From a virus, in the IMG/VR virus record IMGVR_UViG_3300033153_007969, positions 1 through 27,103 of that record: 27,103 nt of DNA; one strand, given 5' to 3'. Position 1 is the first letter of the stretch, and each line of letters opens with the position of its first letter. The notes under the pieces were generated by a model. It made no database searches and had not been told where the DNA came from. It saw nothing but the letters and a program-made list of their open reading frames with translations. The position numbers and the translations under genes were made by a program. This document shows positions 2,611-27,103 of the stretch, piece after piece.

Positions 2611-4248
2611 ATGACGTTAAATACAAAAGAACTAGCTAAACTGGCAGTACGTTTAGAACATGAAGGGCGTTCTGAAAATGCGGCTGAGCTTAATGACATG
2701 ATTAAACAGCTAGCAGAGCCTGTAGAGATGGGCATTGCGCCTGACGTTTCAGAAGAGGGGCCAGTTGAAATGGGCTCTGAGGAACTATTAAGTGAACTCG
2801 ACAGCATAAAAATTGAAATTGCTACCGACAAAGATGCCCCAGGTTTAAAGGAAAAAGTTCAAAACCTTATTTCCCAGCTAGAAGAATTTGTTGGCGATCT
2901 TGTTGGTGGGCCACCAAGCGGCGCGGTTCCTGTTGGCGCAGTAGCTTCTAAAATTATCAGCCTTACTGACGCATTAGATTCTTGTGGTTGGGACAAAGAG
3001 GCTTCGACATTAGACGGTATGCTACAGAAGATGGCGGTTACAATGGTAGAAGATCCTGATGAAGAGTTTAAAAAGAAACTACAAGAAGAGGGCTATTCTC
3101 CAGACACAAAGGTTTATGTTGGGAAACCCGACGAACAAATTGGCGAAGGCGATATTGTAATGCCAGGAAAAGAAGTAGATGGTCCATCTTTGGACAGCGG
3201 TATAGAATCTAAGCTTGTCGAGCTTGCCAGTCAGGGCTGGGATATATTTGGGCCAGGAGACTTAAATAAATGGCTCGATATAAAGGGCTATAAAAAAATG
3301 AGCGATATGCCGGAAGAAGAAGTGGCTAAGATTCAGGAAGAGATGGATAAGGGTGCATCCGTAAAGCGAGCCGATGTAGACTCCGACTTACCTGGCGTGA
3401 TGGACTTGGAAAGTGAAGACAGAGTCCAACCGGAACAGGAAGCTGGGAATCTACCTGAACATCAGCCAGGCGCATTAGATCTAGATAGCCCACATCGCAT
3501 TAACCCAGAAGAAATAAAACAAGAGCTTGACCTATTTTTAACAAACCCAGAAGAAGCGGCAGGAGAGAATCTTCTGTCCAAGATTCAGCAGCTTATTAAT
3601 GAACAGGTCGTTGAACTTCCTGGCGGAACCGATGAAGAGGCCGTCAACTCTCTTGAACAAGTTGAAAAAGCAAAGGGTGTCACATGGTCTACACGTAAAG
3701 AAGTATTCACTAAGCTGGCAGACCTTGCAGACAGATTAGATGATATCGGAGCTACTGACGAAGCAAATTTGGTAGACCAATTTATCGAGGTTCATGCTAC
3801 AGACTTAGAGTATAAGGGTGAGGCCGACACAGAACAAAGCAAGAGATATGATGACAAGCATCACCACTCATTACAAGTTCGTGAGCCAAAGACCAAGCAA
3901 GAACGGGTAGATCGTGAGGGACGCGACAAGCATCACGTTCATACATATGAGAACCAAGAGAGAGACACACAGCACTATAATAAAGGCAAAGAGAATAAGA
4001 AGGAAGCCTCGTTAAGCACTAGATATTGCCCTGAGCATATTGGCGTGTCGATGGGTAGAGTTGGCGAAAACACTTACCAATGCCCATTGTGCCGTGAAGT
4101 ATATAATTGGGAAACCGGCTGGTCTGATCATGATGGTAAAGAACATCCAGGCGGCTCAGTAGCTGCGCAGACACCAGATTCATCTGGCTATGATATTCCT
4201 CATAGAATATTTGACAGCAGAGAAAACATATCTAATAGGGTAAACTAA
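2611..4248 (+). CDS. Acidic multi-hairpin protein with C-terminal zinc ribbon
   Basis: A 545-residue acidic protein of unknown function, preceded by AAGGAG. It carries three copies of the recurrent helical hairpin: residues 5-36, 112-142 and 363-396 (for example LADLADRLDDIGATDEANLV). Between them lie acidic, Pro-containing linkers, including KGASVKRADVDSD (248-258), a KRA-type junction. Residues 400-460 are very rich in His, Lys and Asp. The C terminus holds a likely zinc ribbon, C473-P-E-H476 ... C491-P-L-C494, directly preceded by ASLSTR (466-471), another form of the h-S-x-R motif. The layout is modular: hairpin tags, linkers and a small metal-binding domain. It could be a scaffold, an adaptor or a processed virion precursor. 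Confidence 0.85.
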   Translation: MTLNTKELAKLAVRLEHEGRSENAAELNDMIKQLAEPVEMGIAPDVSEEGPVEMGSEELLSELDSIKIEIATDKDAPGLKEKVQNLISQLEEFVGDLVGGPPSGAVPVGAVASKIISLTDALDSCGWDKEASTLDGMLQKMAVTMVEDPDEEFKKKLQEEGYSPDTKVYVGKPDEQIGEGDIVMPGKEVDGPSLDSGIESKLVELASQGWDIFGPGDLNKWLDIKGYKKMSDMPEEEVAKIQEEMDKGASVKRADVDSDLPGVMDLESEDRVQPEQEAGNLPEHQPGALDLDSPHRINPEEIKQELDLFLTNPEEAAGENLLSKIQQLINEQVVELPGGTDEEAVNSLEQVEKAKGVTWSTRKEVFTKLADLADRLDDIGATDEANLVDQFIEVHATDLEYKGEADTEQSKRYDDKHHHSLQVREPKTKQERVDREGRDKHHVHTYENQERDTQHYNKGKENKKEASLSTRYCPEHIGVSMGRVGENTYQCPLCREVYNWETGWSDHDGKEHPGGSVAAQTPDSSGYDIPHRIFDSRENISNRVN

Positions 4249-4249
4249 T

Positions 4250-5140
4250 ATGAATAAGATGTTAGATGAGTTAATCATGCTTGCTGACATTTTAGATGTT
4301 GGTGGGCTCAAGTGCGAAGCAGCCGAACTTGACGACATCATTAAAGAGGGGTCGACGGTAAGGCCAGTAGTCCAAAGTTTTGTAGAAAGTTTGACACAAA
4401 AGATTCGCGAAAACGAAAAAATTAGCCCAGAAATGTCAGCGGAATTTATTAAAGAGATAAATGATTTAGCTGAGACTGGTTTTAGAACTCTTGATGAAGG
4501 TGATATAGAATCAATGAATATGCAAGAGAATATAATTCCTGAGAACATTGCCGGCACGGTTGATAGTATTAAGGAAGTATATAAAGGTTTAGAATCATCG
4601 CCAGATAATGCAGATCTGTTGCGTGAGTTACATAAATATATACCTGGACTAGCAAATAGTGTGCGCTCACTAGATATCCTAATAAATGGTTCAAGGCCAA
4701 ATGATCAAGCGCTAGCAACGAAAATATTAGACAAGTTGGGTGATAAATTTAATGAAGCTAAAGGAATATTGACAGACTACCATAATAGATTTGGTGTGAG
4801 CAAAGAAGAAATTGAAAAAGGTATTCCTCTAATAATTGAGCGGGCCCAAATGCTAGGCGCAAAGATTCAGACAACCATTAGAGAAAAAAGGCAGCTTGAA
4901 GAATTAATAGTTTCCCCAGGTCAAGAAACAACTAGAAGCGATGATATGCAAAAGATTGATGGAGAGCTGGGACAGATACGTATATATGTAGATTCTGTTA
5001 GAAAACACTCGACCGAAATATTAAAAAGCATTGATATGCTAAGCGTAGTCGAACCAGAATATGTTAAGCAGCTTAAAGAAACATTCGGTGAAGGTTGGGC
5101 AATACTCGAAAGAGCTAAAGATATGGAGTTAAAGCTGTGA
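4250..5140 (+). CDS. Helical protein with N-terminal hairpin motif
   Basis: A 296-residue, almost entirely helical protein that begins with the hairpin motif (residues 4-33, LIMLADILDVGGLKCEAAEL). Long heptad-like stretches follow, for example around residues 120-290 (EKRQLEELIV, DGELGQIRIYVDSVRKHSTEILKSID shortened here), suggesting coiled coils. The start lies one base after the previous stop and the end overlaps the next gene's GTG start by three bases (GTGA), so the three genes are translationally coupled. The ribosome binding site is weak (AGGG). The function is unknown; an assembly or scaffold role would fit its form. Confidence 0.8.
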   Translation: MNKMLDELIMLADILDVGGLKCEAAELDDIIKEGSTVRPVVQSFVESLTQKIRENEKISPEMSAEFIKEINDLAETGFRTLDEGDIESMNMQENIIPENIAGTVDSIKEVYKGLESSPDNADLLRELHKYIPGLANSVRSLDILINGSRPNDQALATKILDKLGDKFNEAKGILTDYHNRFGVSKEEIEKGIPLIIERAQMLGAKIQTTIREKRQLEELIVSPGQETTRSDDMQKIDGELGQIRIYVDSVRKHSTEILKSIDMLSVVEPEYVKQLKETFGEGWAILERAKDMELKL

Positions 5141-7321: not shown

Positions 7322-7324
7322 GCA

Positions 7325-8808: not shown

Positions 8809-9491
8809 TGACAAAAAAAGAAAAAATAGTGGTAAAAGAGGCAACTATACGCGGTAAAAATGTGCGTGAGTGCCCATTTGGACTGCCTATTCCAGAAGCA
8901 TGCGAGAATTTGGGCGGATCTGTTGCAAGACTAGCCCCTATTGATGACAAAGATAGCGCTAAAGACGTTGCAAAAGCAAATAGGTTGGTATATGCTTATC
9001 AGAAGGAGTGCAGAAAGTGCCCTTATGCTGATAAAATATTGGAAGAACACGGAAAGGTAGATTGTGATTTTGGTGATACAGCGGCAGGAAAGAGGGTTCC
9101 TTCGTTAAAAGGAAGCCCATTGTACCCACAAACGTTTCATGGCATTGGTCTAGATGGACTCTATGGATATCCATTAGGCTTTTATGCTGATAACAATGAA
9201 AGTCGTAATTTATTTTTTGGCTTATTTAGTATGTTAGGATACACCACGATTGATGATCTTATTAAACTCGGTGATACTTACGATAAAGTTGGAGAGGAAG
9301 ATAAGGCCGATATTCTCGACGGCTTATTAGCCAAACTTAAGCGGATTAAGGAAGAGTTTAGAGATACTTTTGATAAAACTGAGAAGTATTTAGCTGAACA
9401 CAGGCAGAAGTTCGAAGACAAAAGGGCCGATACGGGTCTACTGTGGGAACTCTCTGATGCGTGGTTTGGTCCAAGACAAGTGAACAGATAA
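8808..9491 (+). CDS. Cys-rich protein with helical hairpin motif
   Basis: 227 residues, not recognised. The N-terminal 90 residues hold five Cys in two clusters (C22, C32; C68-R-K-C71, C86), suggesting zinc or another metal. A Gly/Pro/Tyr-rich stretch follows (100-128, GIGLDGLYGYPLGFYADN). Residues 149-178 are a variant of the recurrent hairpin (LIKLGDTYDKVGEEDKADIL). The rest is a charged helix and a Trp-containing end. The start ATG 8808 overlaps the previous TAA by one base. A structural or assembly role is inferred from neighbours only. Confidence 0.8.
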   Translation: MTKKEKIVVKEATIRGKNVRECPFGLPIPEACENLGGSVARLAPIDDKDSAKDVAKANRLVYAYQKECRKCPYADKILEEHGKVDCDFGDTAAGKRVPSLKGSPLYPQTFHGIGLDGLYGYPLGFYADNNESRNLFFGLFSMLGYTTIDDLIKLGDTYDKVGEEDKADILDGLLAKLKRIKEEFRDTFDKTEKYLAEHRQKFEDKRADTGLLWELSDAWFGPRQVNR

Positions 9492-9507
9492 TTAGGAGGA
9501 TTTGGAA

Positions 9508-10644: not shown

Positions 10645-10653
10645 GGGGCAACC

Positions 10654-11245: not shown

Positions 11246-11839
11246 ATGAAGAAATGTAGTAAGTGCAAGAGTGAAAAAGATCGTAGTAGTTTTGGGAAGC
11301 GATCTAATGTTAGTGATGGACTGCGTTCTGAGTGCAACGAGTGTAGAAAAAAGTATATTATATTAAATAAGAAAAAAATAGCTAAGTATAAAAAACAATA
11401 TTACGACGAAAATCAAGATAAAATAAGAAAATATTTTAAACAATATTGTGCAAGAAACCAAAGAAAAAGATCAGTCCAGCATACGAAATGGCACAGAGAA
11501 AAATATAGAACCAATATTAATTATAAATTAGCCTGTAATTTGCGCAGCAGACAAAATGCCGCGTTAAAAAACAACCAAAAGACTGGCTCGGCGATTTGTG
11601 ATTTGGGATGCTCAATTGAGGAATTTAAGAGGCATTTGGAAAAATTATTCTATTCTCATCCTAAAACTGGTGAGCTAATGACATGGGATAATTATGGGCT
11701 TTTTGGTTGGCACATAGACCATATTAAACCATTATCTGGGTTTGACCTTACGGCCAGAAATCAATTTCTTGTTGCGTGCCATTATACCAATTTGCAACCG
11801 CTTTGGGCAGAAGAAAATCTCAAAAAGGGAACAAACTAA
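11246..11839 (+). CDS. HNH endonuclease, probable homing enzyme
   Basis: The N terminus has a zinc-finger-like Cys set (CSKCKSEKDRSSFG then ECNEC), the middle is a Lys/Tyr-rich basic region for DNA contact, and the C terminus has the HNH nuclease core (WHIDHIKPLSGFD, then N and LQPLWAEENLKKGTN). It would cut double-stranded DNA. I chose ATG 11246, which gives the usual MKKCSKC start; ATG 11225 in the same frame is an alternative overlapping the previous gene. It is more AT- and Lys-rich than its neighbours and sits directly before the large terminase gene, a common place for free-standing homing endonucleases. It overlaps that gene by one base and carries its ribosome binding site. Confidence 0.9.
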   Translation: MKKCSKCKSEKDRSSFGKRSNVSDGLRSECNECRKKYIILNKKKIAKYKKQYYDENQDKIRKYFKQYCARNQRKRSVQHTKWHREKYRTNINYKLACNLRSRQNAALKNNQKTGSAICDLGCSIEEFKRHLEKLFYSHPKTGELMTWDNYGLFGWHIDHIKPLSGFDLTARNQFLVACHYTNLQPLWAEENLKKGTN

Positions 11840-13719
11840 TGGTGACACAAAGCACGTCACATTCTACTATGGAGAAATGGTTTGAGGATCTAAAGAAGGA
11901 AGTCCTTAAAATAGATCCCGTATCGTTTGCCGAAAACTATCTTACAATAGATGGTAAGCCATTGCAACTTGGTGGTGGGACAGGATGGAAATTTTTGGCG
12001 GATATTTATCGCTATGTAGCAACCGTTGGCCTTCAACCTAATGGAAAGCCAGTAGTATGCGTTAAAGGACGACAGGTTGGCGCTACAACTATGGCAACAG
12101 CGTTAGAAATCTATTTCTGCACCAGTGGCCTATTCGGCTCATCTCCAGAAAAACCCCCAATTAGAATCCTTCATTGTTTCCCAGCGCTCGCATTGGTGCA
12201 AAAGTTTGCCAAAGACAAACTTAGTACCATGATGCGCACGTCTGCGGACAATTATGTGATGGAACAGTCTTTGTCTTTAGATATTAAAACTGGCAAGCGC
12301 AGATTAGATGTTCCAGACGATACACTTACAGAGAAGCTGTTTAAACACGAAAACAAGCTTTGGGTAGATTCTAATGCTAATGATGCGCAACGACTTCATG
12401 GTATGTCTTTAGACGGAATATTTTATGATGAGGTTCAGCGCATGAACCAAGACGATATAGGCAACAGTAAAAGAACATTGACTGCTGCCAGGTATGGGCC
12501 AAAAGGCCAGGGCATCCAGTTATATTTTGGAACCCCGCTACAGCGTGGGTCTAATTTTTATAAAATGTGGGAAGCGTCCGACAAAAGAATATATCATTTG
12601 GGTTGTGCCGAATGTAATCATCTTTTTCCTTTATATGTCCCTGGTGCTTCAAACAATGACGATTGGGAAAGCATTTGGCTATATGGAAATGTCGTAGAGT
12701 GTCCGGAATGCCACCATCAACAGGATAAGATAGAGGCAGTTGAAAGGGGCAAGTGGATTGCTTCACAACCAATAATGCCAAACGGGGAAGAGCCCCTGTA
12801 TGTCGGGTTTCATTTTAATCAATTGCTTATTCCATATTTCGTTAAGGAAACAATATTAAAAGAAAAACCTGGGATACATCCTACAAACTCAGAGCGCATC
12901 TGGCAAAATGAAATTTTAGGTGAGTTCTATAGCGGTTCAGATCTGCCAATGTCAGAAGAAGAAATATATGAGCATTGCAGGGATGTGAATAAGAAAATTT
13001 CATTTGGCGCGGCAAATGCCCCAAAAAATGTTAATTTTAAAGTTATTACCCCGTATCACTCACCAACCTTTATGGGTATCGACTGGGGTGGAAAAAATGA
13101 TGATTTAAATTCAACTGGCGGGAAATCATACTCATCAGTTGTTGTTGTATCAGTAGATAAGGCCGGCGTGGCACGGGTTGAAAACGCATTTAAATTAAAA
13201 CGAAATGATTTTCAACACAAGAAAGATGTAATAAACGAGATGTTTAGGCGATTCAACATCAGGGTGGCTGTAGCTGATCTTGGTTATGGCCAAGATATTG
13301 TGCCAGAATTACAAAGAGAATATGGCGGAAGAATTATAGGATGCTTAAGCAGTGGAAGCTTGGTAAATCCTGTTAAATATGACCCTGAGGATTTAAGACT
13401 TATTTGTAATCCTCACGTAGTATTAGAAGAGCTTTTTAGCCAGATGAGAAAAAGCAAAGTGCTTTTCCCATGGCAGAGTTATGAACAAATTCAATGGCTA
13501 ATCGAGCATTGTTGTTCAATGGAAAAGGAAATAAGAACATTTCAAGGAAGAGTTATAACCAGATATGTTAAGGGGTCGGGGCCAAATGACGGACTTATGT
13601 CGCTTATGTATGCACATTTAGCATATAAGTTTTATTTAACCCAGGGGTTTAAAATTAAATCCCACCAGCTTAATGCTGGGAGTAAAGGCCCTATATTGGC
13701 ATATCTGCCAGGAGTATAA
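11839..13719 (+). CDS. terL: Terminase large subunit (packaging ATPase/nuclease)
   Basis: 626 residues from ATG 11839, chosen because AAGGGA lies 8 bases upstream and the ATG overlaps the previous TAA; an in-frame start at 11776 lies inside the HNH gene. The ATPase half has a Walker A-like GRQVGATT (77-84), Walker B IFYDE (about 194-198) and a YFGTP coupling motif (about 229-233). A zinc finger follows, C256-x2-C259 and C288-x2-C291, as in GpA-type terminases. The RNase H-like nuclease half has GIDWG (D415), ADLGYG (D480) and a C-terminal Asp in GPNDG (D584). The P-loop lacks the usual GK(S/T) Lys and has Ala there; K75 just upstream may replace it. It drives DNA into the prohead through the portal encoded next. 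Confidence 0.95.
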   Translation: MVTQSTSHSTMEKWFEDLKKEVLKIDPVSFAENYLTIDGKPLQLGGGTGWKFLADIYRYVATVGLQPNGKPVVCVKGRQVGATTMATALEIYFCTSGLFGSSPEKPPIRILHCFPALALVQKFAKDKLSTMMRTSADNYVMEQSLSLDIKTGKRRLDVPDDTLTEKLFKHENKLWVDSNANDAQRLHGMSLDGIFYDEVQRMNQDDIGNSKRTLTAARYGPKGQGIQLYFGTPLQRGSNFYKMWEASDKRIYHLGCAECNHLFPLYVPGASNNDDWESIWLYGNVVECPECHHQQDKIEAVERGKWIASQPIMPNGEEPLYVGFHFNQLLIPYFVKETILKEKPGIHPTNSERIWQNEILGEFYSGSDLPMSEEEIYEHCRDVNKKISFGAANAPKNVNFKVITPYHSPTFMGIDWGGKNDDLNSTGGKSYSSVVVVSVDKAGVARVENAFKLKRNDFQHKKDVINEMFRRFNIRVAVADLGYGQDIVPELQREYGGRIIGCLSSGSLVNPVKYDPEDLRLICNPHVVLEELFSQMRKSKVLFPWQSYEQIQWLIEHCCSMEKEIRTFQGRVITRYVKGSGPNDGLMSLMYAHLAYKFYLTQGFKIKSHQLNAGSKGPILAYLPGV

Positions 13720-16076: not shown

Positions 16077-19000
16077 ATGACTAAAAAACTAAGTAGCAGG
16101 GTGATTAATTATCCATTGTCTGGACGCGATCCGGGCACATCTGGACATTTGCTTAGCAAACGTGGTGCGCTGTCTATCGAACAGGCAGAAAAAGATCCAT
16201 TTTTGTTTTTTTATCTAGAGCAGTGGAAGACTGCTCCACAAGAAATTACAGAGGCGGCGGCAAAAAGCCTTATGGTAAAGAATTTGCAGTTTTACTTTAA
16301 TTCATATAAGGTTCAAAACATAGACCAAGTATCATATGAAACACAGCTTGAAGCTGCTAGAAAATATTATGTACAATATACTCCACCATGGGTTGATTAT
16401 GCCGAGATAATTAAGGGATATCGTGGTGGCCCTGGCCAGCGCGCTAGTGCCATAGCTGCAGCCGAGGGCGCAGCATATAGATATCCTAGGGAATATTTTT
16501 TAGGCGGCGCGGCTTCATTTATGCCAGAAGAAACATCACAAATAGCCAGAGAGCAGCTTATGTCGCACTTAAAATCGTCACTAGAGTATTTTAAGTTTGG
16601 GTTGTACCAATCTTTGCCACGAGAAACAACTGTTGATATGGCAAGAAAAGTGATATATAACGACCCTGTTGAATTTTTTGACTATAAGCTATATGATGTA
16701 GTTCCAAAAAATATAACTGATGAAGCGGGACAAAGCATAGCACGGCAACTTCCGGGGGCATTTTTCGAGATTAGGATAGATGGCGATTCGCTCATTAAAT
16801 ATTTTCCGCAAGAATTTACTATTTTAGCTGCAGAAACAATGGCTAAACAAGACCCTGATATGTTTTTTGAATTTGGTTTAGATAAACTAGATATTCCTGG
16901 TATAGCGGATATTACTGATTCCGCAAAAATGAGACAGGCGCGTAACTTAGCAAACAGCGACCCGCATAAATTTTTTCATATGAACCTTCAGGAGATTGCC
17001 CCTGACCATTTTACACAAAGGGCTATTTATGGAAAATTAGTTAATGATATGTGGTCTCCTGAGGAAATGCCAGATCAAATTGCTAGGTTTGGTGAACAAC
17101 TGCGTGATGAGAAAGGCGTAGATTACAATATATTTTTAAAGGCACTTAAACTGTTTGGAGAAAATGACCCTACCAAGTATTTTGCATGGGATCTTTTTAC
17201 AATTGTAAAAGAAAACGAGTTTAATCAAAGCCTGGTGACAGCACTTATAAAGCAGTTCGGAGTCAAAAAATATTATTATTTAAGATTACACGAAAAACTT
17301 CCTACTGAAATCACAGCATCAGTGCAACGCCTATTTGAAGATGTTGATCCAACAGATTTTTTCCAGCATGACTATTTTAGCGTAGCTCCAATGGATATTA
17401 CGGTATCAAAAGCACGTGCGTTTGCATCGACAACAAGCGAGCACTATGATTTTCTTGATGCTATAGGATCTATTGTAAATAGTAAAATATATGAATATAT
17501 CCCTAGCGAAATATTAGGGGAAATCGCGCACAGGTTTGCTAAATACTACGGAATCGGACAATATTTAAGAAATGACTTTTCTAAACTTAAGGAAGTTAAA
17601 AATATAACTGACTCGGTTATCAATAGTGATGAAGTATTTGATATAAATCCGGTTGATTTTTTCGAGGATAGGGTTTTTAAAAGCGTTGAGTCTTCAGATG
17701 TATTAACAGCAATGGCAGAAAAACTTGCCACTTTGTGTGAGGAATCGGGACTTAACTCTGGAGTTGCTAATTCTATAGATATAATTTTTGATGACCGTGC
17801 GGTTTATAAAAAGATACCTGTTGATATATTGGTAAGAATCGGAAAAATGTATGCAGAATATATAGGGACTAAAAGATATTTGTCGCGCAATATTTCAAGA
17901 GTGCCAGAACTTCGTGAGGTAACAGAAGAAATTTTGCAGGACCCGACTATATATATGGATGAAGAACTTGGAAACATATACAAAATTAACCAAGATGTTA
18001 CCAAGGATAATTTTGTATCTATAACAGAGTCTCCGTTTCAGTCAGAGCAGAGACCGCTTGGAACTGAAGATCTTACAAGATATGATTTTGCACTTAATAC
18101 GGCTATGATGGGTGAAGAAAATGAAATGCAAAGTGATATATTGAATAATTTATTTCATGAGGCAACATCTGGCGAGGTTCACAATGTTGGACTTCCGGGA
18201 CACACTAAAAGTTTTGCGCTAATTTCATTTCCAAGTCAAGATTCAGTATATTTGGAAGAAATTCAGTCCGACCTACCACCTGTTCTTCACGCACTGGTTG
18301 GCGCAAAAGATAAGGATGGTAACAGGACGGAAAGTTACAGAAAAAAAGATTTCGTTGACAAATACGGAATTGATAGCTTTTCAAAGTTTGTGGGGTTTGC
18401 AAATAAACATGTTAGAGTTTATCCATATGTGTTAATAGGAAAGCTTGCAGAATTTGCCGCGCAAAATGACATAAAAGAAATCAAAATGTTAAATGAAGAG
18501 ACTGTTGTGGATATGGCAGGCATATCAAATAGGAAAAAGGCAAATTGGATATATAACAAGGTTCCTGAGGAGTTAGGTTTTAAACCGTCAGGCCCCGAGA
18601 ATGTAATATATAATGGAGATATGAACGAATTGGCAGCAAAAGCAAAAGAAAGAATTGAAGCTATAGTCGGCAAGAAGATGTCAAAAAGACAGAAGCGAAA
18701 GAACACAGTGGACTTATCTGTTGTTGCCCCGGTAATTAAAAAAATGCTGGGAGACAGGGCGGAAGAGGTAGATATGACTAACAATTTGCCGAGCCTTATG
18801 AAGTCAATACACAAACTAAAACAAGACGGAAAAATTACGAATAAAGAGAATAACCACTTAACAGCATTGATAACAAAACATGTCGTAGCACAACTAGACG
18901 CTTCGATAATTAAAATGGCGGAATTTCATATGGATCATCCGATTAGCAAACGAGCAAAAGTAAAATCTGACAAACCGGCATATAAAGAGAAGAAAAAGAC

Positions 19001-22000
19001 CGACAAGGGATACGTGTGGGTGTATGACGAGAAGCACGTAGAAAAGCGTTGGAAGGAAAAGAAAGACAAGATGAAGAGTCTTGAAAAGAACCTCCAAAAG
19101 GTTAGAAGCAAGTACCAATCAGATCTTACTGCCGAAGATGATAAAACTAGAGCAATTGCAGCCATTGTTGGTATAATGGACGATACCGCTATGCGTATTG
19201 GAAATGAAGACTCCGCAAAGGAAGGCACATTTGGTGCAACCACTTTAAAGGTTAAACACGTTAAAGGTGGAACGGGCAATATGACTTTTGATTTTCCTGG
19301 AAAAGGCGCAATAGAACAGAATGTTGTTTTGAAAAATAACAAGGTAATCAAAGTAATTAGAGACCTAATGAAAGGTAAAAAAGCAAACGACTTTATATTT
19401 GAAATTGATGGAAATAAGATATGGGATCGTGCTGTTAATCGTTATCTAAAAGAATTTGGGATTAGTGCAAAAGATTTGCGCGGATTCCATGCAAATCGTT
19501 TAATGAAAGACATGCTTAAAAAGAAAGATTGGAAAGAGGCACTAGAAACCGTTGCCGACATAGTTGGACACGAGGCGTCTACTTTAAAAAACCAGTATCT
19601 TGACCCAGAGCTTGTAGAAAAACATGAGGGCAAAGATAAGAAAGATGATAAGAAAGAAAAGAAGGCGGCTATAAGTAGTCGTGCAACTGGACAAACAACA
19701 GAGCCTATGCCCTATATACCAGGGTCTGAAGAAGATTTTGATTCGATAAAGCAGCCAATCCAATCGGATCCTAATGATTTGCAAAACATGGTAAAGATGG
19801 TAGATACCAATCTTAATGTTAACAATGCTAAAAGTGCAGTTGTATTTCAAGATCCCAGTGTTCAAAATGCTTGGAGAACAATTGCTCCGTTTTTGCCACC
19901 TGGTTCTATGATAACTAGTGCCTTTAGAGATGATTTTGAACAGGCTAAATTCTTTGTTCAGAAATGGCGATCTTGGGCAAATGGATGGAAACCAAGACAA
20001 GGGTTTTTTGCAAAAGAGCATCCGGAATACGATAGATTTGTAAATCGTATAGAAAGTAAGATAGAAAAAGAGGTACCATTTACCCAACGTGATTATGCCA
20101 GATTTGTCAAGATGAATAATATTATGCGAACGATGGCAAAAGATATTGAAGGATATAAAGAATTTGCCGTTGCTGTTCCAGGCTCATCATATCATGCACA
20201 AGACGCAGCATTTGATGTCACTGGGGCATCGTTAAACAAGATAGTGGGGGCAATAAACTTTGTTGTCCAATCATTCCCTCAACATATACAGCTGCGCCGT
20301 GATCCATTCCTAGAGCCAGAACCACAATCTGCCGTTCATGTGGAACTTAGTCGAGCCGCTGGTGTTCCGGATATGAGCCAATATGTTCCTGTTCTGTATA
20401 AATACTTAGAACAAGAGAACAGGCTTGCATATAACCAGCCAATTACAAAACAAGAGGCGCTATCGTCTCCTATTTCAAAAAGAGCAGAGCTAACACCTGA
20501 GGATGCACAGTGGGTAGAAAAGAACTTAAAAACACTGTCCGGAAGAGCGATTCCTGATGGAGTAGAGGTTGATCAAAAGATTAAAAAGTCATATCGCATA
20601 AGACCAAAGGTTAAACTAAATAGTTTATTGTTTGATGCATGGAGAACGCTTCAGCCGTTTCTGCCTCGTGGCGCAGTTATGACATCAGGGTTCAGAACAC
20701 CCGAAGACCAAAAGCGCATTCTTAATAATTATTGGAAAAAAGCAACTGGTTCACCAGTACCTTCACACCTACAAACTGACCCCAGAGTGTGGCGACAAGT
20801 GTCTAGACTTCTAAGGAGACACCACGGATATATAGTGGGCCCACCACTTACTCCAAATTCATCTAAAAAGAAATTTGGTCACTTTAAAGGCAATTGCCTA
20901 GACATTAGTGGCGCAGATTTATATGATATATCTTCAATTGTAAAAGCTGTTTCTGACCACAAGGATTTGCCGGTTAAATTCCGCAAGCCTTTTGTGGAAC
21001 AAGGAAATAATTGTGTTCATATTGGTGTTGTGAGCGCCACATATGATGAAAGCGCAGTATCTAGCGTGCTGAATGCGACAAATCAACGCGTTGCCTCTAT
21101 TTCAAAAATAGCACAAGAGGAAACATTAGAGAAACAAATCGAGAACATGTATGGCGATTTGGTGATGTCAGACCCTCCTGACGACTTGGTCAAAGAGTTT
21201 GGCGCAGCATTTGATATTGATGCATCGTATGATGAGGACGAAGGCATAGCTGACGGAGAAGATGAACTCATACTGGATATGGGGTTTGGAAAAGAAGACA
21301 TGCGCGGAGACTGGTTTGAAAAATCTCCAATATTCAGATGGCGCGAAGATATACCTAAGTTTGAATTACACGATCTTGAAGAAGCCGCTACAAAAAAGAT
21401 GGCAGAAGAAGATCCAGAAAAGTTTTTCTATCGCGGGCTACATAGGGAATATCCAAAATTAGAAGCACTTGCTTTAGAAAATATGATAGAGGACAATGCA
21501 AAGTTTTTCTTTATCTTCCTGTATCACGAACGCGAAGAAGATTCATTCCAAGATTTGGTAGAAAAAGCTGCCGAAGCGCTATCCTTGCAGGATGCGCGAG
21601 CATTTTTCTATTATCACCTCCATCATAAGTTCCCAGAGTTAGGGCGTGGCGCAATCATACAACTTATTGATACCAACCCAGACACGTTTTTTGATTTAGG
21701 ATTACAAAAAGACTATCCTGATTTGGAGGAAAGTGCTGGTAATGCCAGAAACATCAAAGACCCGAACAAGGTTGAACTAGAACAACCAGAGTGGCTTAAG
21801 AAGGATATAGAAAATCCAATATCGTTACGAGATAGAAATGCAAAAAAGCTGTTTAGTAAGCGTGCGGGCGAGAGCCCAAAAATACAAACAACGCCTGAGG
21901 AAGAGAAGGTGTTTCAGGTTTTAGAAGACACTATAAAACACTTTAGGCTAGGCACAAATGTGCGTGTTGCCGGTGGATGGGTGCGCGACAAGCTTATGGG

Positions 22001-23942
22001 CCTGCAATCTAAGGATATAGACATTGCTATAGACAACATGATGGGCAAGCAATTTGCCGAGTATGTCGGCCAATACGCAAGATCTATGGGTATTGAGGCA
22101 ACAGCCGGAGTAATTCCAGCAAAACCAGAGCAAGGCAAACACCTAGAAACTGCAGTTATTCACATGTTTGGCGAATCAATCGATGTTGTGAACTTGCGGG
22201 ACGAAGAATATGACGAGGAATCAAGAAAACCAGTCGTAACAATTACAGATTCGCCAATGAAAGATGCTTTCAGGCGAGATCTTACAATTAACGCATTGTT
22301 CTATAATATACATACAAAAGAAGTAGAAGACTTTACAGGACAAGGCTTGACGGATATCGAAGATAAAGTTTTGCGCACTCCGCAAACCATTAGTGAAGAA
22401 CAAGAACAAGAGGTAGGTCGACCTATAGATGCGAAGCAAATCTATTTAGATGACCCTCTCAGGGTAATGCGAGCAGTTAGGTTCGCAAATAGATATCCTG
22501 AATTCAAGATTGACCCAGAGATACCTACTGCAGCTAAAGATCCAGAAGTTCAAGAGGCGTTTAGAACAAAAATAACATTCGAACGCAGACAGGATGAGCT
22601 TAAAAAGATTTTTCAGGAGAAGAGAAGTCCTCGTGAAGCTCTAGAGCTTATTAAAGACTGGGGATATCGTTCTGAGATCTTACAGCTTCCAGATCAATAT
22701 TCAGAATGGGAACTTGACCAAAATAATCCACATCATGAGTTTCATGTTTGGGGACATCTTATGGAGGCCCTAGATAATATATATCAGATCACAGAAGGTG
22801 AAGACCTAGATAAGGCAGATCGATATATTTTAAATTGGGCTACGCTGTTACATGATGTTGGGAAACTAGATCCAAACATACAGGGTGCTAAAGAACAGGG
22901 CGACCAGATTATTAATACGTTTCATGGACACGAAAATTCTAGCATAGAGGCTGCACAGCATATATTGGGTAAGCTTAAGGGTACCAAAAGTAAGGATATT
23001 AAACGAGTACAAAGTCTTATTGACTCTGCACGACGTGTAGACTTAGATCCAGAAAAAGCTGCAAACATAAAGGCCAAAACTATACGAAAAATTTTAGAGA
23101 TTACTAAAGATTTTGAGGGAGATTGGCGTAGGGCAATGCAGGTTGCACTTGCTGACGCCGCTGCACACAAGGGTGGGTGGCTCCCAACATTCCCTAGAGA
23201 AGGATATGACCATCTTGTAGGGCAATTTCAGAAAGTTCCACCAGAAACACTAACCCCTTTGATCAGTGGTATGGATTTACAAAACATGTTTGGTCGTAGA
23301 CCAGGCAGGTGGATAGGTCAAATTAATAAAGACCTACAAACATGGCAGACACAAATGGCAACACAGGGCGCTGCCCCTACTGCTGATGATGCAAAGCAAT
23401 TCGTACAAACGTTCGACGCGCAAAACATATACGATGAAAAACGCAAAGAATATAATGAGCCGGTTGTATCTTTGGTTAAAGAGGCTAGTCAGCATGTAAT
23501 ATCAAAACGAGCCGAAGATACTGATATAATATCATTACCCAGTGTGTCCGACATTAATGAAGAACTAGGCAATTTGCCTGGAGCATTTCCACAAAGAGAT
23601 GAAAGAACGTCATCTGGACAACTTGACATTTCAGAGGGCGTTTCGCTACTGTGGAATTATTTTATATATTCTGACGGCACAGCAGGTCCAAGATATGGTG
23701 CTGTGGCAAACCTCCAATATGCTACAGGCGCTCTTTCCCAATATATAAAGGTTTTTTCGTTTACCGGAGGAAGTCAGCAAGAAACTCTAGAACAGCTACA
23801 ATCGTTTCTAATGGATCAAGATCTACACAACAAAATGACACAAATTATAGTGGACAAAGAAAAATCTGAAGAAGATGGTTTGGCCGAGGTTATACCTCTT
23901 TTTGGGAAAAAACTTAGTACACGACATATGGTTAATAGATGA
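16077..23942 (+). CDS. Giant multi-enzyme protein, probable polyprotein
   Basis: One uninterrupted frame of 2621 residues (about 300 kDa), almost 30% of the window. Modules in order: DPxxFF repeats (about 36-630), EEIQSD polyvalent-like region (about 640-955), type IB topoisomerase (about 960-1190), two M15-type peptidase domains (about 1240-1440 and 1500-1660), DPxxFF repeats again (about 1770-1900), CCA-adding nucleotidyltransferase with HD domain (about 1930-2460) and a C-terminal domain (2480-2621). Junction motifs start at S27 (SKRG), S957 (SKRA), S1200 (SSRA), S1467 (SKRA), S1676 (SKIA), S1927 (SKRA) and S2476 (SKRA), each after I, L or F. Polyvalent proteins of phages and conjugative elements are known to fuse many enzymatic domains and are thought to enter the host with the DNA. 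Cleavage at the motifs is inference. Confidence 0.93.
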   Translation: MTKKLSSRVINYPLSGRDPGTSGHLLSKRGALSIEQAEKDPFLFFYLEQWKTAPQEITEAAAKSLMVKNLQFYFNSYKVQNIDQVSYETQLEAARKYYVQYTPPWVDYAEIIKGYRGGPGQRASAIAAAEGAAYRYPREYFLGGAASFMPEETSQIAREQLMSHLKSSLEYFKFGLYQSLPRETTVDMARKVIYNDPVEFFDYKLYDVVPKNITDEAGQSIARQLPGAFFEIRIDGDSLIKYFPQEFTILAAETMAKQDPDMFFEFGLDKLDIPGIADITDSAKMRQARNLANSDPHKFFHMNLQEIAPDHFTQRAIYGKLVNDMWSPEEMPDQIARFGEQLRDEKGVDYNIFLKALKLFGENDPTKYFAWDLFTIVKENEFNQSLVTALIKQFGVKKYYYLRLHEKLPTEITASVQRLFEDVDPTDFFQHDYFSVAPMDITVSKARAFASTTSEHYDFLDAIGSIVNSKIYEYIPSEILGEIAHRFAKYYGIGQYLRNDFSKLKEVKNITDSVINSDEVFDINPVDFFEDRVFKSVESSDVLTAMAEKLATLCEESGLNSGVANSIDIIFDDRAVYKKIPVDILVRIGKMYAEYIGTKRYLSRNISRVPELREVTEEILQDPTIYMDEELGNIYKINQDVTKDNFVSITESPFQSEQRPLGTEDLTRYDFALNTAMMGEENEMQSDILNNLFHEATSGEVHNVGLPGHTKSFALISFPSQDSVYLEEIQSDLPPVLHALVGAKDKDGNRTESYRKKDFVDKYGIDSFSKFVGFANKHVRVYPYVLIGKLAEFAAQNDIKEIKMLNEETVVDMAGISNRKKANWIYNKVPEELGFKPSGPENVIYNGDMNELAAKAKERIEAIVGKKMSKRQKRKNTVDLSVVAPVIKKMLGDRAEEVDMTNNLPSLMKSIHKLKQDGKITNKENNHLTALITKHVVAQLDASIIKMAEFHMDHPISKRAKVKSDKPAYKEKKKTDKGYVWVYDEKHVEKRWKEKKDKMKSLEKNLQKVRSKYQSDLTAEDDKTRAIAAIVGIMDDTAMRIGNEDSAKEGTFGATTLKVKHVKGGTGNMTFDFPGKGAIEQNVVLKNNKVIKVIRDLMKGKKANDFIFEIDGNKIWDRAVNRYLKEFGISAKDLRGFHANRLMKDMLKKKDWKEALETVADIVGHEASTLKNQYLDPELVEKHEGKDKKDDKKEKKAAISSRATGQTTEPMPYIPGSEEDFDSIKQPIQSDPNDLQNMVKMVDTNLNVNNAKSAVVFQDPSVQNAWRTIAPFLPPGSMITSAFRDDFEQAKFFVQKWRSWANGWKPRQGFFAKEHPEYDRFVNRIESKIEKEVPFTQRDYARFVKMNNIMRTMAKDIEGYKEFAVAVPGSSYHAQDAAFDVTGASLNKIVGAINFVVQSFPQHIQLRRDPFLEPEPQSAVHVELSRAAGVPDMSQYVPVLYKYLEQENRLAYNQPITKQEALSSPISKRAELTPEDAQWVEKNLKTLSGRAIPDGVEVDQKIKKSYRIRPKVKLNSLLFDAWRTLQPFLPRGAVMTSGFRTPEDQKRILNNYWKKATGSPVPSHLQTDPRVWRQVSRLLRRHHGYIVGPPLTPNSSKKKFGHFKGNCLDISGADLYDISSIVKAVSDHKDLPVKFRKPFVEQGNNCVHIGVVSATYDESAVSSVLNATNQRVASISKIAQEETLEKQIENMYGDLVMSDPPDDLVKEFGAAFDIDASYDEDEGIADGEDELILDMGFGKEDMRGDWFEKSPIFRWREDIPKFELHDLEEAATKKMAEEDPEKFFYRGLHREYPKLEALALENMIEDNAKFFFIFLYHEREEDSFQDLVEKAAEALSLQDARAFFYYHLHHKFPELGRGAIIQLIDTNPDTFFDLGLQKDYPDLEESAGNARNIKDPNKVELEQPEWLKKDIENPISLRDRNAKKLFSKRAGESPKIQTTPEEEKVFQVLEDTIKHFRLGTNVRVAGGWVRDKLMGLQSKDIDIAIDNMMGKQFAEYVGQYARSMGIEATAGVIPAKPEQGKHLETAVIHMFGESIDVVNLRDEEYDEESRKPVVTITDSPMKDAFRRDLTINALFYNIHTKEVEDFTGQGLTDIEDKVLRTPQTISEEQEQEVGRPIDAKQIYLDDPLRVMRAVRFANRYPEFKIDPEIPTAAKDPEVQEAFRTKITFERRQDELKKIFQEKRSPREALELIKDWGYRSEILQLPDQYSEWELDQNNPHHEFHVWGHLMEALDNIYQITEGEDLDKADRYILNWATLLHDVGKLDPNIQGAKEQGDQIINTFHGHENSSIEAAQHILGKLKGTKSKDIKRVQSLIDSARRVDLDPEKAANIKAKTIRKILEITKDFEGDWRRAMQVALADAAAHKGGWLPTFPREGYDHLVGQFQKVPPETLTPLISGMDLQNMFGRRPGRWIGQINKDLQTWQTQMATQGAAPTADDAKQFVQTFDAQNIYDEKRKEYNEPVVSLVKEASQHVISKRAEDTDIISLPSVSDINEELGNLPGAFPQRDERTSSGQLDISEGVSLLWNYFIYSDGTAGPRYGAVANLQYATGALSQYIKVFSFTGGSQQETLEQLQSFLMDQDLHNKMTQIIVDKEKSEEDGLAEVIPLFGKKLSTRHMVNR
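16182..17960 (+). other. DPxxFF tandem repeats, block 1 of giant protein
   Basis: At least nine repeats of about 35-50 residues carry the core (D/N)PxxFFxxxLxxxxP followed by a helix rich in Ala and Ile. Examples: NDPVEFFDYKLYDVVP, KQDPDMFFEFGLDKLD, NSDPHKFFHMNLQEIAP, DVDPTDFFQHDYFSVAP, INPVDFFEDRVF. Some copies have lost the DP or one Phe. The pattern suggests a helical solenoid used for binding. I know no named family for it. Confidence 0.75.
17990..18900 (+). other. EEIQSD polyvalent-like region of giant protein
   Basis: LEEIQSD at residues 726-732 is followed, after a variable stretch, by VRVYPYVLIGKLAEFAAQND and IKEIKMLNEETVV. This order resembles the EEIQSDW module of phage and plasmid polyvalent proteins, where the motif precedes an alpha/beta segment with a conserved Ala-rich helix. 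The Trp that often follows the motif is missing. The region 820-955 is basic and helical. Assignment is from memory and moderate. Confidence 0.5.
18945..19650 (+). other. Type IB DNA topoisomerase domain of giant protein
   Basis: All five residues of the type IB active site are visible: R1040 (AMRIGNED), K1076 (FPGKG), R1135 (DLRGFHANR), H1165 (IVGHEAS) and the nucleophile Y1174 (NQYLDP). The spacing H to Y is 9, as in the vaccinia enzyme, and R to K is 36 against 37 there. Such enzymes relax supercoils through a 3'-phosphotyrosyl bond without ATP or metal. It begins right after SKRA (957-960) with a basic helix and ends in a Lys/Asp-rich tail before SSRA (1200-1203). Confidence 0.9.
19800..20400 (+). 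other. M15-type peptidase domain 1 of giant protein
   Basis: ITSAFRD followed by S-Y-H1373-A-Q-D-A-A-F-D1380 and A-V-H1421-V-E-L gives the His, Asp, His zinc set of the D-Ala-D-Ala carboxypeptidase/endolysin (M15) fold, pattern SxHxxGxAxD ... HxE. The usual Gly in the motif is Asp. An insertion of about 90 residues sits between the FRD and SYH parts. A role in cutting peptidoglycan peptides during entry would fit, but protein substrates are also possible. Confidence 0.75.
20580..21060 (+). other. M15-type peptidase domain 2 of giant protein
   Basis: It repeats the layout of domain 1: DAWRTLQPFLPRG (compare NAWRTIAPFLPPG), MTSGFRTPEDQ, G-H1602-F-K-G-N-C-L-D1609 and C-V-H1648-I-G-V. The zinc residues are present, but the Glu after the last His (HxE) is Gly, so activity is uncertain. 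The two domains arose by duplication and have diverged strongly. It is bounded by SKRA (1467) and SKIA (1676). Confidence 0.7.
21380..21770 (+). other. DPxxFF tandem repeats, block 2 of giant protein
   Basis: Four closely spaced repeats of about 30 residues: EEDPEKFFYRGLHREYP, EDNAKFFFIFLYHERE, LQDARAFFYYHLHHKFP and DTNPDTFFDLGLQKDYP, each followed by a short Leu/Ala helix. These copies are more regular than those of block 1, which is over 1000 residues away in the same protein. They are preceded by an acidic segment. Confidence 0.75.
21890..23480 (+). other. CCA-adding nucleotidyltransferase plus HD domain
   Basis: A complete class II nucleotidyltransferase: G1966-G-W-V-R-D with D1980-I-D1982 (metal site), R2066-R-D-L-T-I-N-A-L, DDPLRVMRAVRFANRY and ERRQDELKKIF. 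An HD domain follows with HHEFHVWGH, L-L-H2259-D2260-V-G-K and HGHE, the arrangement of bacterial CCA enzymes that also remove 2',3'-cyclic phosphates. It likely adds or repairs RNA 3' ends. It is more complete than the stand-alone relative at 7325. Confidence 0.9.
23511..23939 (+). other. C-terminal domain of giant protein
   Basis: The last 143 residues, after SKRA at 2476-2479, form a separate small domain (VSLLWNYFIYSDGTAGPRYG, LQYATGALSQYIKVFSF) and end with KLSTRHMVNR, another h-S-x-R sequence. No family recognised. Confidence 0.55.
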
Positions 23943-24349: not shown

Positions 24350-24363
24350 GACTAGGAGATATC

Positions 24364-24645
24364 ATGCTTATTACATTAGTTAAAATTGCCAACAAATTAG
24401 ATTCCCTTGGAGAACACGGGTTGGCTACAGAACTCGATACAGTTATACAAGAGTTAGCCGCTTATGCTGAAAAAAGCCGAGACAAGCTGTTAGATGACTT
24501 AAAAGAGGTTACTAATAGATTAGAAGATGACAAGACCTCGCCAGAAAGACTCAAAGAGCTTAATGAGGTTAGGGAAAATATCGAAAAAGATCTTGCGGTT
24601 TTAGATGACGAAGAGGAGAGTAACAATGATGAATGCAGTAGCTAA
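24364..24645 (+). CDS. Hairpin-motif protein, coiled coil
   Basis: 93 residues; strong ribosome binding site (TAGGAG). The first 31 residues are one of the best copies of the recurrent hairpin (VKIANKLDSLGEHGLATELD). A charged coiled coil follows (DKLLDDLKEVTNRLEDDK) and an acidic Ser/Asn tail. Its 3' end overlaps the next gene by 20 bases, so the two are coupled. It is essentially a hairpin tag plus a helix; no enzymatic motif. Confidence 0.8.
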   Translation: MLITLVKIANKLDSLGEHGLATELDTVIQELAAYAEKSRDKLLDDLKEVTNRLEDDKTSPERLKELNEVRENIEKDLAVLDDEEESNNDECSS

Positions 24646-24850
24646 ACTATACAAATTAGCATATGTGCTTGACAAAAAGAGTATGTTTGACGAGGCACGT
24701 GAAATTGAAAGAGTTATGGAAGCTATGGCTCAGCGTATGGGCATTAAACTAGAAGACATGGTTGCTTTGGCTGATCATTTTGACCAAGTTGGCGAAACAG
24801 TTTTGGCTGACAAGTTTGACCAAATGGCCAAAGAGGCAAAAAAAAAATAA
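24626..24850 (+). CDS. Double hairpin-motif protein, likely frameshifted
   Basis: 74 residues from ATG 24626, chosen because AGGAG (24614-24618) is 7 bases upstream; ATG 24605 has no such site. The protein is two hairpin motifs in a row: about 3-34 (LYKLAYVLDKKSMFDEAREI) and 42-72 (MVALADHFDQVGETVLADKF). It ends AKKK at TAA 24848, immediately after ten A residues. The -1 frame continues open for 200 bases with protein-like sequence (see next entries), so the real product may be a fusion of about 140 residues. Confidence 0.8.
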   Translation: MMNAVAKLYKLAYVLDKKSMFDEAREIERVMEAMAQRMGIKLEDMVALADHFDQVGETVLADKFDQMAKEAKKK

Positions 24851-24876: not shown

Positions 24877-24882
24877 GATAAA

Positions 24883-25053: not shown

Positions 25054-25065
25054 TAGGGGTTTACT

Positions 25066-25662
25066 ATGAGTACTACAACAATAGGAACATATGGGTTTAA
25101 GAAAACTGCTGCTGAGATCCCGCCCGAAGCGGCCGAGAAACTAAAGAAAATGATCAGAGAAATGGATGAGGAAGAAGGTCATGTTGTGCCTCCAGAATTT
25201 GAAGAGGGGCCGCCAGAGCAAGAACAGGCTAGGGACCTTCATGAGGCATTAACAATGAAAACCAAGCCTCGTACAGAAACTCCTATGGATCCAAAAGAGA
25301 TCGAAGAAGGATACAGGCAGGTTGGCGAAGAAGAGTGGGACGAGCGCCATGGCGGAGTATCTGTAGAAGAACATGATAAGCTTGAGTGGCCAGCAAAAGG
25401 AATAGATGCCGATTGGCTTGAACAAAAAGAGAAGGGTGTAACTAACCCACCAGAAGACCAAGAAATGTTTTTACCAGAAGGCCCACGCGGCGAATTTGAA
25501 GAAGCTGGCGAAACATATGAGGAAGAAGATGATTGGAGAAATTGGATGGAAAGACGCAAGGCAGAAATGAAATCCAAGCTGATCAAAATGGCTAATAAAC
25601 TAGACGGTAAGGGCTTATATGATGAAGCCAATGCTATCGATGAAATTATCAAGGGACTATGA
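25066..25662 (+). CDS. Acidic protein with C-terminal hairpin motif
   Basis: 198 residues, very rich in Glu, Asp and Pro, probably disordered for residues 30-165. The N terminus has FKKTAAE (11-17), a Lys-x-Ala junction. The last 31 residues are an excellent copy of the helical hairpin (LIKMANKLDGKGLYDEANAI), here at the C terminus, whereas in the genes at 24364 and 26578 it is at the N terminus. The stop overlaps the next start (ATGA). A tag on an otherwise disordered acidic carrier fits a scaffold or packaged adaptor. Function unknown. Confidence 0.82.
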   Translation: MSTTTIGTYGFKKTAAEIPPEAAEKLKKMIREMDEEEGHVVPPEFEEGPPEQEQARDLHEALTMKTKPRTETPMDPKEIEEGYRQVGEEEWDERHGGVSVEEHDKLEWPAKGIDADWLEQKEKGVTNPPEDQEMFLPEGPRGEFEEAGETYEEEDDWRNWMERRKAEMKSKLIKMANKLDGKGLYDEANAIDEIIKGL

Positions 25663-26564
25663 AACTAATATCGCGCAGGCACAAAGAGGCTTCTAAAGAT
25701 AAGCCTAAAGCCGGAGTTTTTATCACTTTGCCGGATGATTTGGCAAAACAGTTTCCTTTGTTAGGGAAGCATGATGATTCTCCGCCGCATGTGACTGCGC
25801 TATTTATAGGTGAAGTTTTAAAGAAAGATGAAAGCTTACTGCTTAAAACCATTAAAGAGGTAGCAGAATTGCATGAGCCTTTTGTAATGAAGTTGGATGA
25901 GAAGGTAACTTATTTCCCGGCATCAAAACACTCTGATGATTGTAAAATAGCAAAGCTTAAAATCATATCTCCAGAGTTGCATGAGTTTCATAAAGCCTTA
26001 AAAGAAGCTATCGGAAAGGTAGAGATGCATATCGATGATCATTTTTCTGGCTATAAGCCTCACGTAACTCTGTCTTATATGCCTCCACCTAGGAAAACAT
26101 ATGATCGAGATGTCCCTAGTGGTTCTTGGGTTACTGAAGAAATACATATATGGAATGGAGATAAGAAAAACGTAGTAAGGCTTGGTAACAAAAAGAAAGC
26201 GTCTCTGTCATGTAGACATAAAAATGCTGGCATTGAACAAACGCAATCTGGAATAGGCATTAGTACTTCTGCACGCAAATACTATAGAGAGATTCACCCG
26301 GAGATGGCCGGGATAATGAATGCAGAATTGAACCAAAGTATAGCCCAGGAATTTGCAAGTGCTAAACCTGAACACAGGTTTAAACTTCGCAGTGGAGAGA
26401 TAGCAGAAATTAGAAGATCCAATTCTTTACTTCTAGTTGCCGCTATTCGTGGTAGAGGAACTGCGTCGGTAAGATATGATGTAATAGTGATTCAACCATC
26501 GTATAAAGAACCATCTGATGAGATAAGGAAAATGCGCTTGCAGCCAGGTTGGGGCGTTGAATAA
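25659..26564 (+). CDS. 2H phosphoesterase-like protein with extra domain
   Basis: 301 residues. The N-terminal domain (about 15-170) has the two His-x-Thr motifs of the 2H phosphoesterase superfamily: PPH44-V-T-A-L and YKPH135-V-T-L-S-Y. These enzymes open or cut 2',3'-cyclic phosphates and related bonds, and act in RNA repair; in phages some degrade cyclic oligonucleotide signals of CBASS defence (Acb1). Residues 181-187 (ASLSCRH) are a form of the h-S-x-R motif and separate it from a C-terminal domain (190-301) of unknown type with RFKLRSGEIAEIRRS and a strand-rich core. It overlaps the previous gene by four bases. The substrate cannot be told from sequence. Confidence 0.8.
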   Translation: MKLISRRHKEASKDKPKAGVFITLPDDLAKQFPLLGKHDDSPPHVTALFIGEVLKKDESLLLKTIKEVAELHEPFVMKLDEKVTYFPASKHSDDCKIAKLKIISPELHEFHKALKEAIGKVEMHIDDHFSGYKPHVTLSYMPPPRKTYDRDVPSGSWVTEEIHIWNGDKKNVVRLGNKKKASLSCRHKNAGIEQTQSGIGISTSARKYYREIHPEMAGIMNAELNQSIAQEFASAKPEHRFKLRSGEIAEIRRSNSLLLVAAIRGRGTASVRYDVIVIQPSYKEPSDEIRKMRLQPGWGVE

Positions 26565-26577
26565 AAGGAGAGAGTCG

Positions 26578-27103
26578 ATGAATATATTGGAGAGACTTAT
26601 CAAAATAGCCAATATGCTGGATCAAAAAGGCATGTTTGACGAGGTCGCTGTACTTGATGAAATCATACTAGAGGCTGCAGAAACGCCTGAGCAGGAAATG
26701 AAACGCTTAAACCAACAAATGGTTACTACAATGATAAATACAATTGTGAGTGAGCTACCAGGTGGGGCTACCGGCGGCGGACAAAAGGCTGTTATTCAAG
26801 GGCTTCAAGGAAAAGACTTTTTCACTGCAAAAAGAACTATGGAACAATTTGTTAATACACAACCAGAGATGCGGGGCGCACTAAATAAAGCGCTTAGCCA
26901 AATTAACCCAATGATAGATCGCTTTACACAATTAAAACAACAGGCTGCACAACCAGCTGCACAACCTGCGCAGCAAGCCCCACAAGGCCCAGCGGTCGCT
27001 GGCACGGGACAAAAACAAGCACCTAAACCAAACCCAAAAGTGCTGGCTAGACAAAAACAATATAATGTAAAACGCAAAGAGCTTGCCGGGATGCGGCTTA
27101 TGT
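26578..27103 (+). CDS. Hairpin-motif protein, cut by window end
   Basis: The frame opens at ATG 26578 with a strong ribosome binding site (AAAGGAG) and runs without stop to the right edge (175 residues). Residues 3-33 are the hairpin motif (LIKIANMLDQKGMFDEVAVL). Residues 36-120 are helical, followed by a Gln/Pro/Ala-rich linker (about 122-150, AAQPAAQPAQQAPQGP) and a basic part (KVLARQKQYNVKRKELAG). The layout, with tag, helical region and low-complexity linker, resembles the gene at 5861. Function unknown; more of the protein lies outside the window. Confidence 0.8.
   Translation, partial: MNILERLIKIANMLDQKGMFDEVAVLDEIILEAAETPEQEMKRLNQQMVTTMINTIVSELPGGATGGGQKAVIQGLQGKDFFTAKRTMEQFVNTQPEMRGALNKALSQINPMIDRFTQLKQQAAQPAAQPAQQAPQGPAVAGTGQKQAPKPNPKVLARQKQYNVKRKELAGMRLM

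Follow-up and report, generated by a model that had tools for sequence, protein, structure and literature searches.

Why would a virus place the same segment of some thirty residues on proteins that otherwise share nothing? The question is raised by IMG/VR record IMGVR_UViG_3300033153_007969, a complete virus record of 27,103 bases analysed here as a whole (hereafter, the window), which is a tailed-phage head-gene module. An initial annotation had pointed to a helical hairpin recurring in seven or eight of the encoded proteins. As described below, this hairpin is a previously unnamed, virus-specific mobile domain, for which no named family was found. Proteins bearing it are referred to as tagged; G- and L-numbers are labels of related or tag-bearing viral records and loci, L093 being a contig in a cellular metagenome-assembled genome (MAG).

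Hairpin copies encoded in the window

Ten hairpin copies are distributed across seven window proteins, named here by the first position of their open reading frames (ORFs): three in 2611, two in 24605 and one each in 4250, 8808, 24364, 25066 and 26578. A profile was made from nine window copies, and was then rebuilt leaving out one protein each time and tested on the omitted protein (leave-one-out). Each carrier was recovered in this way, and the strong copies stand in frame at the positions initially given.

2620..2715, plus strand: hairpin copy at the N terminus of ORF 2611-4248 (residues 4-35); profile 43 bits, 31 bits with the profile of relatives
2941..3036, plus strand: hairpin copy, internal in ORF 2611-4248 (residues 111-142); profile 46 bits
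3703..3798, plus strand: hairpin copy, internal in ORF 2611-4248 (residues 365-396); E 1e-4 with a profile lacking its own protein
4259..4351, plus strand: hairpin copy at the N terminus of ORF 4250-5140; leave-one-out E 2.8e-7
9252..9338, plus strand: hairpin variant, internal in the Cys-rich ORF 8808-9491 (residues 149-177); leave-one-out E 2.5e-5 to 0.025
24364..24459, plus strand: hairpin copy at the N terminus of ORF 24364-24645; leave-one-out E 2.4e-9
24638..24730, plus strand: first hairpin copy of ORF 24605-24850; leave-one-out E 2.3e-4, AlphaFold helices 3-24 and 28-45
24746..24841, plus strand: second hairpin copy of ORF 24605-24850; leave-one-out E 9e-4, AlphaFold helices 49-62 and 64-80
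25567..25659, plus strand: hairpin copy at the extreme C terminus of ORF 25066-25662; leave-one-out E 3.7e-10, AlphaFold hairpin with pLDDT 96.6
26584..26679, plus strand: hairpin copy at the N terminus of ORF 26578-27102, which continues past the window end; leave-one-out E 4.1e-9

When the copies of ORF 2611-4248 were taken singly in the leave-one-out analysis, the second reached E 0.01 and the first E 0.17; the third, at 3703..3798, is the one retained in most orthologues (G001, G003, G004, L002, L005 and L011). The variant in ORF 8808-9491 was accepted because most near relatives are tagged at the same internal site and two distant ones in an N-terminal extension. The protein of ORF 24605-24850 consists of two hairpins in series and little else, the second starting 36 residues after the first, and a search for related loci with this ORF as query found no relative. 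Two weaker copies had also been placed in ORF 5849-7321 (gene 5861), where the profile search gave no domain above 0 bits, so that seven of the claimed 'seven or eight' carriers stand and this further one does not.

The motif is short and helical, and unrelated amphipathic helices of similar look might be suspected behind it. This explanation has practically no chance: it is excluded by the leave-one-out E-values, by shuffling (the top score in 5 x 614 shuffled proteins was 4.8 bits vs 43-49 bits for clear copies), by the reversed-pattern control and by the confident common fold, the last two given below. The profile hidden Markov model check that the initial annotation had proposed thus finds the copies homologous and extends them to many viral records.

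Consensus and reach across viruses and cellular genomes

Across thirteen related contigs, the window among them, the profile detected 53 copies in 43 proteins. Profile searches converged even when started from divergent variants. The consensus LAxxLDxxGxxxEAxxLD proved correct and is borne out by 182 distinct copies, which give L-x-x-[LI]-A-[DN]-x-L-D-x-x-G-x-x-x-E-A-x-x-[IL]-D-x-[IL]-[IL], with A7 conserved in 91%, D11 in 95%, G14 in 95%, A19 in 95% and D23 in 90%. By placement, 85 of these copies are N-terminal, 23 C-terminal and 74 internal.

The core A-[DN]-x-L-D-x-x-G-x-x-x-E-A-x-x-I-D was further turned into a DNA pattern and searched, with the same codons in reversed order as control. 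It matched 54 stretches in IMG/VR viral contigs vs one for the control, and every viral stretch reads in frame as hairpin. Among 84,980 cellular genomes the pattern matched 13 stretches, of which a single one was a genuine hairpin, located on the 8.4-kb contig L093 of a Rickettsiaceae MAG. Besides the pattern-matched copy, three adjacent proteins at 6111-8000 of this contig begin with a divergent hairpin (LINDLEDQGLTAEASSLQEVFVRVA). Because of these further hairpin proteins, and because its proteins match those of the 379-kb virus G006, L093 is probably a phage contig, and its divergent hairpins probably form a second branch of the tag family.

Each of the 26 additional viral records that were tested has the hairpin, with a maximum of ten copies per record. 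Searches by tblastn with a natural copy, the consensus and a variant against 50,697 annotated phages returned just one irrelevant match (E 8), and tag queries against plasmids gave no relevant match. Judged by these searches, the hairpin is almost purely viral and limited, so far as seen, to uncultivated tailed phages.

Predicted fold and relation to known domains

AlphaFold, supplied with an alignment of 41 copies, predicted an antiparallel hairpin with helices at residues 2-16 and 20-32 and a mean pLDDT (predicted local distance difference test) of 96.6. For the two-copy protein of ORF 24605, four helices were predicted with modest confidence (pLDDT 73). Nothing credible was found for the tag in Pfam and PHROGs, no Foldseek match at E 0.001 was obtained with the two-hairpin model or the single hairpin, and the open-licence PMC literature searched gave no account of a helical tag common to phage head proteins. 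It should be added that influenza NS1 and designed mini-proteins, returned by Foldseek, were set aside as common helical arrangements showing no kinship.

The nearest likeness is to TPR units, with which the hairpin shares a helix-turn-helix of about 34 residues and, in helix A and the turn, the intervals between small and hydrophobic residues. The single hairpin model superposes on TPR units of FimV, IpgC, SycD and PcrH at 0.5-0.8 Å over 33 residues (Z 2.8-5.1), although such geometry is widespread for two helices and hence weak as proof of kinship. In profile comparisons, hhalign aligned helix A and the turn with a sample of TPR (PF13181) at 34% probability over 18 columns, and weak PDB matches were to MamA and designed TPRs (E 0.01-0.04). 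The Pfam TPR families matched neither the tagged window proteins at E 0.1 nor 57 carriers at E 0.001. The hairpin, unlike TPR, occurs mostly as single copies with no solenoid array of at least three, the tandem pair of ORF 24605 and relatives coming closest, and has its own near-invariant Asp at positions 11 and 23. Given the missing Pfam match, the rarity of tandem copies and these Asp residues, the hairpin does not qualify for the TPR family; a common ancestor is possible.

This weak profile similarity and the TPR-like geometry would also suit an explanation in which the copies, as TPR-like hairpins left over or arisen by convergence, are structural filler and share no partner. Such filler is improbable: D11 and D23, which the fold does not obviously need, are at least 90% conserved over about 58 unrelated contexts, and the copies are mostly single or terminal and solely viral.

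SHOCT is a module of about 30 residues and two helices found at the ends of many unrelated proteins, and in these respects it resembles the hairpin. Kinship with SHOCT (PF09851) was rejected on an hhalign probability of 0.3% against three SHOCT sequences, a small sample, and on the lack of a Pfam match. The hairpin would act like known portable targeting or docking tags, yet belongs to none of those tested.

Mobility and carrier proteins

With the hairpin masked, the 99 tagged proteins among the 1496 clustered fell into 20 families and 38 singletons, giving about 58 unrelated families, a few of them held together loosely through chained matches. The strongest evidence for mobility comes from orthologues. 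The family of ORF 391 is untagged in the window and has a C-terminal tag in G012, G023 and G024; for ORF 8092, only the L005 and G023 members of the family are tagged; in the family of ORF 8808, the tag is internal in most nearer relatives, N-terminal in G023 and G024 and absent from six distant relatives (L151-L156). Because the tag has been gained, lost or moved among orthologues, the hairpin is, as judged from these sequences, a transferable module and not a component of any single fold. The earlier description of a mobile two-helix tag on otherwise unlike proteins, outside any named family, is accordingly upheld by the masked clustering, the predicted hairpin and the Pfam and PHROGs results.

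Carriers with known domains include proteins with a LysM match, a Cell Wall Hydrolase match, a DNA-binding/starvation-regulator domain, DUF6582 and DUF5661; one protein (L137:10470-11219) has an N-terminal tag followed by a LysM-like stretch. No tagged example of terminase, portal, protease or major head protein occurred among the proteins clustered. The LysM, Cell Wall Hydrolase and DNA-binding carriers suggest cargo, and were counted in favour of loading into the head.

The variant carrier ORF 8808-9491 adjoins the head genes and contains the Cys clusters CPFGLPI..AC and CPYA or CLYA, together with a C-x-FGD stretch, mostly retained among relatives. Its product is likely a metal or Fe-S protein, to judge from these residues.

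Genomic setting and proposed role

The head module of the window is anchored by two genes:

11776..13719, plus strand: large terminase of GpA type; PF05876 E 4.7e-15, phrog_675 E 2.5e-54
13732..15714, plus strand: portal protein; phrog_16240 E 1.1e-56, 34% identity to Bacillus phage G gp14

Terminases 69-81% identical to that of the window are encoded at 12 IMG/VR loci. The nearest heads among annotated phages are those of Bacillus phage G, as seen from the window portal and from the major head protein of G013, 52% identical to its phage G counterpart. The major head protein family was recognised through this G013 homologue (phrog_2522, E 7.7e-77), and a head maturation protease (phrog_18299) is encoded in relatives. 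The phrog_2522 head protein or phrog_16240 portal is present in 20 of the 30 tag-bearing records, in G020 by a weak match only; their absence from a tag-bearing record shows little, because the records may be fragments. Most hairpin phages with visible head genes thus appear to have a phage-G-type head.

Tagged genes gather near these head genes. In the 162-kb relative G001, all ten lie inside 37 consecutive genes of 152 (P 3e-5), a stretch that includes terminase, portal and the phrog_18299 protease, the major head protein gene following just after. A 382-aa protein bearing two tags is encoded just upstream of the G001 protease. The 82 copies counted in 15 records include 64 at a distance of at most 20 kb from a head gene, where 46 would be expected (P 5e-5, which is optimistic because copies from related phages were treated as independent).

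Beyond the observed homology, predicted fold, mobility, viral restriction and enrichment near head genes, we infer docking to a common partner and incorporation into the head. On this reading, to which we give somewhat less than an even chance, the hairpin would be a mobile tag whose docking brings cargo or core proteins into the prohead. Phages would in this scheme add it to the N or C terminus or the interior of unrelated proteins, mainly those encoded in the head module, meaning here the region around terminase, portal, maturation protease and major head protein. The hydrophobic faces of both helices would pack onto a common partner, be it the hairpin of another tagged protein or a core or scaffold protein of the prohead, and the tagged proteins would thereby enter the prohead ahead of DNA packaging. 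The initial annotation had offered prohead direction, retention in a scaffold or common oligomerisation; gene position, capsid lineage and the precedent of phage T4 favour such roles, which stay at the level of plausible interpretation.

Several observations weigh against recruitment into the prohead, in addition to the optimistic P value above and the differences from T4 given at the end. Most carriers have no known family in Pfam or PHROGs. Three tagged genes of G010 lie between a DHH phosphoesterase/PurZ-like block and groEL, five of the six copies in G006 are more than 20 kb from portal and head genes, and the 32-kb copy of G009 and two of the three G018 copies are likewise distant. Because the G010 and G006 copies lie far from head genes, a scattering of tags among non-virion functions, named at the outset as a finding that would speak against the idea, is partly seen. 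Furthermore, a whole-record profile search of phage G, Rctr197k, LR745208, Tunturi_5, Myrna and Rhodococcus phage E3, all with related heads, detected no hairpin; the head itself can therefore do without the tag.

The copies away from head genes would suit the main alternative, a general mix-and-match oligomerisation module, in which hairpins bundle and gather proteins into complexes that are not specific to the virion. Conserved hydrophobic positions (3, 4, 6, 7 and 10, and 15, 19, 22, 25 and 26) seem to exceed the obvious need of two helices, and some proteins hold two to three copies, that of ORF 24605 being little beyond two hairpins. Yet the head-gene enrichment, and the occurrence of one capsid lineage in most tag-bearing records showing a head module, would be unexpected for a general module, which we regard as possible but rather unlikely.

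The G010 genes near the phage groEL bear on another explanation, that the hairpin is an adaptor: one non-capsid factor, which might be a host protein, a chaperonin or a protease, would read it, and the tagged proteins would be marked out for folding, for turnover or for a place in the cell. The highly conserved acidic residues D11 and D23, along with D/N8, suggest a specific partner, and TPR units, which the hairpin resembles, are peptide-binding modules. However, groEL is near tags in just one record, and no shared non-head neighbour gene was found except for one small protein family; we consider such an adaptor quite unlikely. The small protein, of 124-137 residues, adjoins tagged genes in four phages, even far from head genes (G001_69582, G013_11420, G009_31803 and G010_48358).

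Neighbouring genes and the [IL]SKRA motif

Downstream of the portal gene, the window encodes a giant protein:

16077..23942, plus strand: 2621-aa multidomain protein with topoisomerase IB, poly(A) polymerase head, weak HD and further domains (Pfam matches), having no hairpin

It contains SxR[AHG] motifs, mostly [IL]SKRA, at residues 27, 957, 1200, 1467, 1927, 2476 and 2614; those at 957 and 1927 stand ahead of the topoisomerase IB domain (992-1172) and the poly(A) polymerase head (1963-2100), respectively. The [IL]SKRA motif was found again in giant proteins of G001, G005 and G013. Similar motifs begin stand-alone proteins, namely MNRPLSKRAQ in window ORF 8092-8808 and MKISKRAQ and MKRLSKRAQ in relatives. 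The small protein G001_69582 starts with MKPISLRHK, which matches an internal KKASLSCRHK of ORF 25659-26564, where a 2'-5' RNA ligase-like domain is fused to the stretch holding this sequence. If the giant protein is a packaged polyprotein, the SxR[AHG] motifs could possibly be its protease sites; alternatively, they could be N-terminal signals that have survived gene fusion.

The hairpin end, D-x-x-[IL]-x-x-x-A, shares register with [IL]SKRA, A being the most frequent residue of its column (36%), and in one G024 protein the two coincide (LLDRIISKRAG). As a lead, such a coinciding end could be a site of the maturation protease. An extended proposal is a modular head-loading code, in which hairpin-bearing proteins would be drawn into the prohead core, injected into the host and freed by the maturation protease, perhaps cutting at the [IL]-x-x-x-A hairpin end, with its likeness to the recurring [IL]SKRA motif. 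Moving one 30-residue module would then change the set of injected proteins. We hold this code to be unlikely, while giving it some weight.

The window also encodes two copies of a poly(A) polymerase/CCA-type nucleotidyltransferase head domain, one standing alone at 7325-8092 and the other within the giant protein. In G001, the major head protein gene (L019, 89221-92470) is in three pieces with LAGLIDADG homing-endonuclease genes between them, and the 1413-aa portal gene (L017/L018, 54492-58733) matches the window portal in separate pieces. The latter suggests inteins or other large insertions in the G001 portal gene, and that of G023 looks alike.

Whichever role applies, an unnamed virus-specific mobile domain ties together about 58 protein families that are unrelated according to databases. 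Were it a head-loading tag, candidate virion cargo could be listed by a simple profile search for a whole large-phage group which includes relatives of the phage G head and has almost no protein of known function, and the hairpin would be a folded, position-independent label for placing chosen proteins in large phage heads. As an oligomerisation module, it would still mark out a common interaction network.

Comparison with T4 internal proteins and polyvalent proteins

The internal proteins of T4 are directed to the core by their propeptides, and a foreign protein joined to this sequence enters the head (PMC9026906). The capsid-targeting sequence (CTS) of T4 IPI-III and the hairpin are alike in being short portable segments common to otherwise different phage proteins, of the head in T4 and putatively so here. 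The hairpin is likewise common to several proteins from the head or late region, as the enrichment indicates, with exceptions. The CTS, however, is N-terminal, about 10 residues long and cleaved off by the prohead protease, whereas the hairpin is a 30-residue fold at any position, and 74 of its 182 copies are internal. Polyvalent phage proteins (Iyer et al. 2017, PMC5512222) offer a second comparison: the neighbouring 2621-aa multidomain protein is of the same general kind, but it has no hairpin, and no such hairpin is described in the passages of that paper considered here.

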